DNA from: Thermoplasmata archaeon
GTDB lineage: Archaea > Thermoplasmatota > Thermoplasmata > Lutacidiplasmatales > UBA184
Direction of reading: 5' to 3'
Assembly (NCBI GenBank): GCA_035532555.1
Contig: DATKQS010000009.1
Location: forward strand, 1 to 64,000
DNA: 64,000 nucleotides
Below are positions 50,761-53,304 of this stretch, piece after piece. Below the pieces are notes generated by a model. It was not told where the DNA came from. It ran no database searches and was given only the letters and a program-made list of their open reading frames with translations. The position numbers and the translations under genes were made by a program. Positions within the stretch are counted from its first letter, which is position 1, and the number at the start of each line of letters is the position of its first letter.

Positions 50761-51597
50761 ATGGTGGACGGCAGGATCCCCGATCGACGCACCCACCGCG
50801 CGGTCCGCGGCTTCGATCGTTCCGCACCCACGTACGAGCGAGGGCGTCCGGACTATCCTGCCGAGGTGATCGAACTCCTCGCCCGCGTCCTCCACCTTGG
50901 GCCGGGACAGACGATCGTCGAGCTCGGGAGCGGGACCGGGAAGTTCACTCGCGCCTTGCGGCCCCTCCGGGCCGCGCTCGTCCCGGTGGAACCTACGCGC
51001 GGAATGCGGGAGGAGTTCGCCCGCCGTATCCCGGACCTGCCCGTGTTGGACGGCACCGCCGAGGCAATCCCGGTCCCGGACGGCTTCGCCGACGCGGTCC
51101 TCGTCGCCCAGGCGTTCCACTGGTTCCGGGCCCGCGTCGCACTCCGCGAGATCGCGCGGGTTCTGCGGCCCGGAGGCGGCCTCGGTCTGGTCTGGAACAT
51201 GCGCGATGAGCGCGTGCCGTGGATGCGGGAGTTCACGCAGATCCTAGAAGATTACAACTGGGGCGTTCCCCGCACCCGACAACGGCGCTGGCGTCCGGCC
51301 TTCGAGCGGGGTGGGATCCCGTTCGGACCGTTGCACCATCGGACCTTCCACCATATTCAATGGGTCCACATCCCCGGGGTCGTCGCGCGTGCCCTCTCCG
51401 TGAGCATGATCGCGGTCCAGCCGGTCGCCGAGCAACGCAAGGTCGCCCGCCGCATCCGCGAACTCCTCGCTTCCGATCCCATGACCCGAGGCCGGCGGCT
51501 GATCGACATCCCGTACCGTACCGAGGTGTACTGGTGCCACCGCACCGAAGCCCGTCCCCGGAGTCACGCGGCGCGCACGTCGCACCCGTACCGGTAA
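50761..51597 (+). CDS. Class I SAM-dependent methyltransferase (UbiE/type 11-like)
   Basis: A 278-residue methyltransferase. [16 protein letters not shown] is the typical N-terminal start of the family, motif I is [15 protein letters not shown], and [26 protein letters not shown] and [15 protein letters not shown] follow. These proteins methylate small molecules, often aromatic acids or lipids; the substrate is not clear. ATG 50761 is chosen, and ATG 50740 is also in frame. Its 3' end overlaps the Cas4-like C-terminal gene on the opposite strand by 34 bases. Confidence 0.82.
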
Positions 51598-52088
51598 CGG
51601 CACCCGGCACAACGGCGGGGCGATGGGCGCGCTCGACCGTCGTACGGGAGCGCGACCTCGCGTCGCAGCGCGAGGAGCCGCTGCCGTTGGTCCTCTCCCC
51701 AATCGATCCGGAACTCTCCTCCGTCGGAGTATCGGAGCACCCCGTACGGCACGGGCACGTCGGTCGTCTCCTCGACCAGGAGGCAGTACGCCCAGACCTG
51801 GACGACGTGAGAGAGCGGCGGACCGTTCGGCGGGCTTGTGCGGCTCTTGATCTCGATCGGTACGATCCGACCGTCCCGGGTCCGGCGCAAGGAATCCGGA
51901 CGCCCGACGAGGCGGTAGCGATGCGAGATCAACGGGGCGTTCCTTCGCCGTCCGTCATCCACCGCGATCAACTCCCCGTGGACCCGATCCCGGGCGCGTC
52001 GATGGAGCGAACGGACGCTGGCTACGAGCGCCGTCACCCCGACCACGGCGAGCCCGAGAAGGAGGGTGATCGTCAGCGAAGCGACCAT
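51564..52088 (-). CDS. Cas4-like PD-(D/E)XK nuclease, C-terminal half with membrane anchor
   Basis: A 174-residue protein. It starts with a membrane helix (ASLTITLLLGLAVVGVTALV), then carries the core of a Cas4/RecB-type nuclease. The motif II Asp is in LVGRPDSLRRTRDG, motif III is IVPIEIKSRT, and the QxxxY-like HVVQVWAYCLLVEE follows. The end has three cysteines, [10 protein letters not shown] (160-169), which match the three C-terminal iron-sulfur ligands of Cas4. The family's N-terminal Cys and motif I are not here but in the gene just upstream, which overlaps this one by 16 bases in another frame. The start is ATG 52088. There is no CRISPR array or other cas gene nearby. Confidence 0.75.
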   Translation of the reverse strand: MVASLTITLLLGLAVVGVTALVASVRSLHRRARDRVHGELIAVDDGRRRNAPLISHRYRLVGRPDSLRRTRDGRIVPIEIKSRTSPPNGPPLSHVVQVWAYCLLVEETTDVPVPYGVLRYSDGGEFRIDWGEDQRQRLLALRREVALPYDGRARPSPRRCAGCRYRYGCDVRAA

Positions 52089-52339
52089 GCCCAAATCCCC
52101 ACGATCACGAGAAGGAGGAGACCGAGGCCCGCGAGGGCGAGGTAGGTTCCCGCGTGCGAGTCCCGTGTCTCCTCGGAGCGAAGTTCGCGCACGTGGTAGC
52201 GTCGGCCGGCCTCCGCCCGATGGCTTGCGCTTCGGGGGATCTCGCCCGGTGGAGGGTGCTCCCGGTACCAGTACGCTCTCGGGCAGTAGGTGTACTCCGC
52301 CAGATCGCTCGCGGAGGCCCACGGGATCTCGGGATCCAC
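52073..52339 (-). CDS. Cas4-like nuclease, N-terminal half with membrane anchor
   Basis: An 88-residue protein. ASASDLAEYTYCPRAYWYREH carries the single N-terminal Cys of Cas4-type nucleases (Cys19), and AGRRYHVRELR holds the motif I His. The last 20 residues (LALAGLGLLLLVIVGIWAWS) are one membrane helix followed by Leu-Arg and the stop. It overlaps the C-terminal half by 16 bases: the downstream ATG and this TGA share ATGGTCGCTTCGCTGA. Together the two supply all four cysteines and all active-site motifs, and would meet as a pair of helices in the membrane. Alternatively a frameshift has split one gene. Confidence 0.72.
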   Translation of the reverse strand: MDPEIPWASASDLAEYTYCPRAYWYREHPPPGEIPRSASHRAEAGRRYHVRELRSEETRDSHAGTYLALAGLGLLLLVIVGIWAWSLR

Positions 52340-52479: not shown

Positions 52480-53304
52480 ATGGAGGAGATCGTGCGCTTC
52501 GAGCGAGTGGCCGGGCACCTCGCCGCAGTGCCCGTTCAGCTGGGCCCGTCGATCGAGACGCGATTCGTCCTCGATACCGGGATCGGCCTCAACCTCATCT
52601 CGAGCGCGCTCGCGACTCGCATCGGGGCACGTCGGACCGGTGCGATCCATACGGGCCAGCGGATGTCCGGGCAGGCGGTCTCCGTTCCGCTCGTCACGAT
52701 CCCCCGACTTTCGATGGGCCCCCACCACCGGGACCATGTCCCGGCAGGGATCCTCGACCTCGCGGGGTTATCCGCGCAGTTCGGGGTGGATGGGTTTCTC
52801 TCCTTGCAGTTCTTCGAGAGCACCGCCTTCACGATCGGCGGGCCGGGCCGAACCATCTATCTTCCTCAGCGAACACCGGCCGGCCCGGGAACCGCCGCCT
52901 CCTTCGAAGTCCCGATCCGGATCGACCGCGACGGCCCCTCGGTCAGCGCGTTCACGGACCTGCGGTTGCCGAACGGTCGCCGCGCGAGCGTGGAGATCGA
53001 TAGTGGATCGGACTCCCTCATCCTGAACGCGAGGTTCCTCGCGGACCTCGGCCTACGCGCCGATGCGGAAGGCGTGCGGACGGTGCAAGGAACGGACGAG
53101 ACGGGCTATGCGTATACCCGACGCTTCGCTCGGATCCCCGATCCCGTAAGCCTCTGGGATGCGCCGAGCATCTCGCAACGCGACCTCGACGTGATGTTCC
53201 AGGAGATCATGTACGATGGTCTCCTCGGTGACGCCTTCCTGAGACGGTACGATGTTACCTACGACGTTCCTCGCTCCCGGGTGACCTTCGCCGAAGCCCC
53301 GTGA
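52480..53304 (+). CDS. Retropepsin-like aspartic protease with two lobes
   Basis: A 274-residue protein with two retropepsin-type units in tandem. Unit one has the catalytic triad FVLDTGIGLNLIS (Asp32-Thr-Gly) and the later FGVDGFLSLQF. Unit two has VEIDSGSDSLILN (Asp174-Ser-Gly) and GLLGDAFLRRYDVTYD. Each unit would supply one Asp, as in pepsin, so the protein could be active as a monomer. There is no signal peptide, so it acts inside the cell. The substrate is unknown; related single-unit proteins in bacteria and archaea are poorly studied. The start is ATG 52480. Confidence 0.75.
   Translation: MEEIVRFERVAGHLAAVPVQLGPSIETRFVLDTGIGLNLISSALATRIGARRTGAIHTGQRMSGQAVSVPLVTIPRLSMGPHHRDHVPAGILDLAGLSAQFGVDGFLSLQFFESTAFTIGGPGRTIYLPQRTPAGPGTAASFEVPIRIDRDGPSVSAFTDLRLPNGRRASVEIDSGSDSLILNARFLADLGLRADAEGVRTVQGTDETGYAYTRRFARIPDPVSLWDAPSISQRDLDVMFQEIMYDGLLGDAFLRRYDVTYDVPRSRVTFAEAP

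Follow-up and report, generated by a model that had tools for sequence, protein, structure and literature searches.

Two overlapping half-genes in a Thermoplasmata family probably encode a membrane-anchored, CRISPR-independent nuclease of the Cas4 family

Two half-genes and their proposed joint product

Two overlapping minus-strand genes in the window, the 64,000-nucleotide stretch of archaeal DNA analysed here, very probably encode a membrane-tethered, CRISPR-independent nuclease of the Cas4 family (PD-(D/E)XK, four-cysteine), which in the window's archaeal family would be produced as a heterodimer. The first chain would supply the N-terminal cysteine, the motif I histidine and membrane helix 1, and the second would contribute helix 2, the metal-binding D/E/K/Q residues and three further cysteines. 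Translation of the second gene would begin within the first gene or at its end, and coupled initiation or reinitiation is the most likely mechanism. Such coupling would give matched amounts of the two chains and allow their helices to come together as a membrane hairpin, while the soluble parts would join at the cytosolic face to complete both the active site and the cluster. From the sequence we infer that the chains pair, that they hold a metal cluster and that they have nuclease activity. A first-pass annotation of this DNA had proposed that a Cas4-like nuclease is encoded here as two halves, each anchored in the membrane, with no CRISPR system nearby, and both the sequence and its relatives support that proposal.

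The two open reading frames, their shared 16 nucleotides and their different frames are as first annotated, and the motifs and two hydrophobic helices lie where they had been placed (Table 1). When the two products were scanned separately against NCBIfam, the Cas4 model TIGR00372 matched the upstream product over model positions 3–42 (E 2.6e-5, 24.1 bits) and the downstream product over positions 57–179 (E 2.3e-15, 56.9 bits); each score is below the curated cut-off of 65 bits, and each match covers a complementary part of the model. Because the matches are complementary, the two products jointly span one Cas4. Another Cas4 profile, PF01930, has no match in the whole assembly. The downstream half also matches PDDEXK_1 (PF12705) in Pfam with an E-value of 2e-8. 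PADLOC reports matches to Cas4-type, Cas4-Cas1-type and DruK nuclease models. A RecB-like/Cas4 fold is predicted both for a one-chain relative (see below) and for the downstream half on its own (pLDDT 92.7), with Cas4 as the top PDB match in each case. The PD-(D/E)XK residues (H, D, E-x-K and Q-x3-Y) are complete, but they are distributed over two chains.

Table 1. Features of the split gene, in window coordinates
Feature	Position	Strand	Basis
Upstream half-gene, GTG start, 88 aa: N-terminal cluster Cys, motif I G-x3-H, C-terminal membrane helix	52073..52339	-	ORF, TIGR00372 positions 3-42, family conservation
Downstream half-gene, ATG start, 174 aa: N-terminal membrane helix, GRPD, E-x-K, Q-x3-Y, three C-terminal Cys	51564..52088	-	ORF, PF12705, TIGR00372 positions 57-179, model, PDB match
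16-nt overlap ATGGTCGCTTCGCTGA, from the second gene's start to the first gene's stop; downstream frame is -1 to upstream	52073..52088	-	
Shine-Dalgarno-like GTGGGGA ahead of the second gene's start (putative)	52096..52102	-	16S tail pairing; inference for this single site
Membrane helix 1 (predicted), ~residues 67-85 of upstream product	52085..52141	-	Hydropathy, positive-inside
Membrane helix 2 (predicted), ~residues 5-23 of downstream product; model helix 2-35	52020..52076	-	Hydropathy, positive-inside, model
Cys19 codon, upstream half (cluster Cys 1)	52283..52285	-	Invariant in 78 split loci and one-chain set
His49 codon, upstream half, motif I	52193..52195	-	99% conserved
Asp65 codon, downstream half (GRPD, motif II)	51894..51896	-	Motif, conservation
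Glu79-Ile-Lys81 codons, downstream half (E-x-K, motif III)	51846..51854	-	Motif, conservation
Cys160, Cys163 and Cys169 codons, downstream half (cluster Cys 2-4)	51582..51611	-	100% conserved

Conservation of the split

The downstream half was searched against 103 genomes of the window's archaeal family, with strong matches in ~81 of them. From these, 85 loci were taken; both halves were recovered by BLAST in 78 and by profile in three more (L054, L083 and L084). All 78 BLAST-complete loci show the same split with both helices, the first half terminating in a hydrophobic helix, and none is fused; this regularity far exceeds what chance would produce. The relative frame is identical in 77 of them, and the three loci completed by profile again have the halves in different frames, with no fusion. 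Nor is a separate motif I present in the second half of any homologue, the arrangement that the first-pass annotation had named in advance as speaking against its proposal. The named relatives are Thermoplasmata MAGs. Approximately 22 of the 103 family genomes have no strong match, including a few that are at least 90% complete; thus the pair is not essential everywhere. Three loci (L083, L084 and L085) are degenerate additional copies of the split gene, in which the C-terminal cysteines are lost or stop codons interrupt the frame.

Over the 78 split loci, the four cysteines, the P and D of GRPD, the E and K of E-x-K, and the Q and Y of Q-x3-Y are 100% conserved, and the motif I histidine is 99% conserved. 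Values of dN/dS of ~0.1–0.4 for each half, from eight pairs, indicate purifying selection on both. It is therefore very improbable that the halves are decaying, or that nuclease function has been lost in favour of a structural membrane role. The degenerate extra copies in some genomes would fit such a loss, and a precedent exists in a Cas4-derived viral protein turned nucleocapsid protein (PMC4625639); however, conservation of the catalytic and cysteine residues and purifying selection on both halves argue against it.

The probability that an error of assembly or sequencing introduced an indel into an ordinary one-chain gene is negligible. One-chain homologues do occur in the phylum, and one family locus, L039, does resemble a local indel: its frame relation deviates, its genome is a 59% complete MAG, and the difference is probably a 1-nt error just past GTGA. 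Against this explanation, the 78 loci share the split, the frame and the motifs, diverge down to ~40% identity and come from dozens of separate assemblies. A split that recurs in so many independent assemblies is not an indel, and this candidate was ruled out.

Start signals at the overlap

The overlap ranges from 1 to 28 nt across the loci and reaches 46 nt in one. Counted from the end of the first gene, the top-scoring start of the second falls at -4 in 30 loci, at -19 in 20, at -16 in 8 and otherwise at a few other positions. Two loci (L026 and L046) have CTGA at -4 and need a CTG start, and L080 has an ATG at -46. The long overlaps (-13 to -28) differ from the usual coupled spacing. An ATG or GTG occurs within the overlap zone in 73 of the 78 loci, whereas synonymous shuffling of the first gene predicts 53. 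Shine-Dalgarno pairing was calculated with the 16S 3' end GGATCACCTCC; ahead of the second start it is -7.5 kcal/mol, compared with -5.8 +/- 0.24 kcal/mol after synonymous shuffling and -4.1 kcal/mol at internal start-like codons, an excess that is somewhat inflated by a mild bias, since the best start per locus was picked by the same score. No classical slippery heptamer (in-frame XXXYYYZ) is present at the junction, and the only two found lie 69–78 nt upstream.

Since start codons and Shine-Dalgarno-like sites are kept and slippery heptamers are absent, two coupled proteins are favoured over a frameshift product. The pair thus looks like translationally coupled overlapping genes, with a predicted second start inside the end of the first gene and initiation signals beside it. 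In archaea, short same-strand overlaps link the translation of the two genes and are over-represented among genes that encode subunits of heteromeric complexes (PMC10666635). The first-pass annotation had allowed either a heterodimer or a frameshift product, and it is the coupled heterodimer that these signals favour. Programmed -1 frameshifting at the overlap would yield a single membrane nuclease of full length, and the short first ORF would only be a by-product of it. This would agree with the downstream frame, which is -1 to the upstream frame in 77 of the 78 loci, and the fused chain would match the one-chain architecture known from other families. However, overlaps of -1 or -4 give the -1 frame anyway, and the variable overlap length, the junction free of heptamers and the retention of start signals above synonymous expectation make frameshifting decidedly unlikely.

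Membrane topology

Charges around the two helices follow opposite patterns. The 15 residues flanking helix 1 contain 3.1 K+R before the helix and 0.5 after it; for helix 2 the values are 0.07 before and 4.4 after, and each pattern is found in 73 of 74 loci. By the positive-inside rule, these charges place both soluble catalytic halves in the cytosol, and the break between the chains is predicted to be the outer loop of a helical hairpin. Together with the hydrophobic helices themselves, this pattern across the family loci bears out the earlier suggestion that each half is anchored in the membrane by one helix. The gene fission is located at a topologically permissive loop. The nuclease is most likely held at the inner face of the membrane, where it would act on DNA independently of CRISPR.

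One-chain relatives and origin of the split

All other lineages sampled within the phylum have the homologue as a single chain (one-chain set, L125–L164 and L175–L194). Other families of the class have one ORF of ~330 aa, in which membrane helices (mostly four) are predicted to separate the motif I histidine from GRPD, and order-mates from two other families (L125–L127) are one-chain as well. Across the phylum, about two helices are found at the split point in L176–L178, L180–L185 and L190, eight in L132, L143, L175, L179, L186 and L191 (~480–650 aa), and four at the same point in further one-chain forms; these counts are approximate, since hydropathy alone gave three in some rows. Anchoring in the membrane is therefore no peculiarity of the split form: elsewhere in the phylum, a single chain carries its helices at the same position.

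The one-chain proteins are also recognizable as Cas4 relatives. All 36 that were aligned match both TIGR00372 and PF12705, and the four cysteines, D and K are invariant among them; L135 scores 77.6 bits against TIGR00372, above the 65-bit cut-off. In an AlphaFold model of a one-chain relative (pLDDT 88.8), the motif I helix continues into the first membrane helix. The best PDB matches of this model are type I-C Cas4, a Cas4-Cas1 fusion, SSO0001 and ACE1, in agreement with a profile search. Membrane-bound Cas4-type proteins, which are predicted nucleases, apparently constitute a widespread, undescribed class.

In a tree of 76 rows, whose root is not fixed, the split forms make up one group with support of 100/100. 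The split probably arose once. The simpler view, with the root not fixed, is of an ancestor that was probably a single chain carrying a membrane insert at the split point; evolution would then have run from one chain to the split form. A viral origin was set aside after the one-chain alignment, in a single scan of viral contigs, gave no relative. One catalytic domain has here been split naturally, and dozens of species retain the split together with both helices and the overlap signals; it clearly exemplifies a lineage-fixed gene fission and a conserved way of building one membrane enzyme from two parts. The pair also offers a ready two-part nuclease for structural work.

Gene neighborhood and possible role

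The split gene is adjoined upstream, on the same strand, by L24e and L7Ae in 50–54 of the 78 loci, and downstream by a methyltransferase or Sua5 gene. These translation genes say little about function, and no consistent partner gene of the split pair was found. In the window, a gene for a retropepsin-like aspartyl protease (52480–53304, plus strand; PF13650, E 3e-16) is divergent to the pair; it is adjacent in only 2 of the 78 loci.

The neighborhood of the one-chain gene is different in some other families. Directly upstream, on the same strand, L135, L149, L151, L158 and L163 have a membrane-anchored PLD-like protein, with a PKD domain where scanned, and a related PLD gene is also near L138. 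In the 12 tested genomes of the split family, PLD proteins are either missing or weak; as a partner adjacent only in some other families, PLD was rejected. A small protein of ~100–120 aa, with hydrophobic helices, a charged tail and no Pfam match, is encoded downstream on the opposite strand and ends at the stop of the one-chain gene (L128–L134, L143, L150, L151, L158, L161, L163 and others), with a lipoprotein-like gene next.

The first-pass annotation had raised a role in DNA uptake, and it is unlikely that the pair is the cytosolic nuclease of a DNA-uptake machine. The predicted anchoring on the inner face of the membrane and the PLD+PKD neighbor of the one-chain gene in several other families are consistent with that role. 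Gene content, however, does not support uptake of the ComEC type: ComEC (PF03772) is missing from all 73 genomes tested, those with and those without the gene, and the split family combines its lack of clear PLD proteins with a location amid translation genes. The pair might instead be a house-keeping nuclease for DNA at the inner face of the membrane, whether entering foreign DNA or DNA under repair.

It is possible, if doubtful, that a phylum-wide, undescribed class with 2, 4 or 8 helices between motifs I and II defends the archaeal membrane on its inner face against DNA coming in, and that in one family it has become an obligate two-chain enzyme whose active site and cluster form only when the helices pair. 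If this is true, the obligate two-chain form could make activity depend on membrane assembly.

Probable independence from CRISPR

The window's assembly is 1.6 Mb in length and ~96% complete. The whole assembly has no Cas1, and there are no CRISPR-like direct repeats within the window, in agreement with the earlier remark that no cas gene or array is nearby. That the pair is a Cas4 of CRISPR adaptation which has lost its locus, or travels separately from it, is extremely improbable. Such an origin could account for the Cas4 profile matches of the pair, and a Cas4-Cas1-like fusion does lie near the degenerate copy L084 in one family genome, but the missing Cas1 and repeats and the distinct membrane architecture of a phylum-wide family weigh against it.

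Two other Cas4-like genes were observed in the family. The fusion ORF in L084 (G007:C54) begins at ~1772 on the plus strand, and the membrane Cas4 copy near it, while degenerate, is still split. Most family genomes also contain another Cas4-like paralogue, a single chain of 269 aa with no evident membrane insert or Pfam match (G000:C20:182368-182769; L091:757-1566).

Comparison with known systems

Solo-Cas4 nucleases are widespread in archaea, and their function is unknown (PMC5704561). The pair shares with them (COG1468/PF01930; PMC5704561) the PD-(D/E)XK motifs, the four cysteines, the absence of neighboring cas genes and a lineage-bound distribution in archaea, and it lies outside CRISPR loci, between L24e/L7Ae and the methyltransferase or Sua5 gene. 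It differs from them in the membrane insert between motifs I and II and in the split gene. Characterised solo-Cas4 members are single soluble chains; with two chains, each bearing a predicted membrane helix, the pair is a variant and not an ordinary solo-Cas4. In the 2017 survey of the Cas4 family, the word 'membrane' appears only in an unrelated gene name and 'split' nowhere (PMC5704561), and a search of the open-access literature found nothing relevant on membrane-bound or split Cas4. The conserved membrane anchor narrows the solo-Cas4 question to DNA at the membrane and yields a testable class.

Among CRISPR proteins, type I-C Cas4 (PDB 8d3l/8d3q) is, with SSO0001 (4ic1), the top fold and sequence match of the one-chain relative and the downstream half. 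Both are one chain without a membrane insert, and type I-C Cas4 works with Cas1-Cas2. ACE1, an Argonaute-associated Cas4 family protein (PDB 9iab), is a weaker match with a non-CRISPR Cas4 fold; it differs in its association with Argonaute and is not known to be split or membrane-bound. Structure matches place the nuclease domains of AdnAB/AddAB, Dna2, MGME1 and EXO5 in the same RecB-like fold class, but these are helicase-fused or stand-alone soluble enzymes, unlike the membrane pair. The gene arrangement has its closest counterpart in the overlapping pairs for heteromeric complexes in archaea, which likewise have short same-strand overlaps with coupled translation (PMC10666635); in the present pair, however, both subunits would be halves of one enzyme domain.
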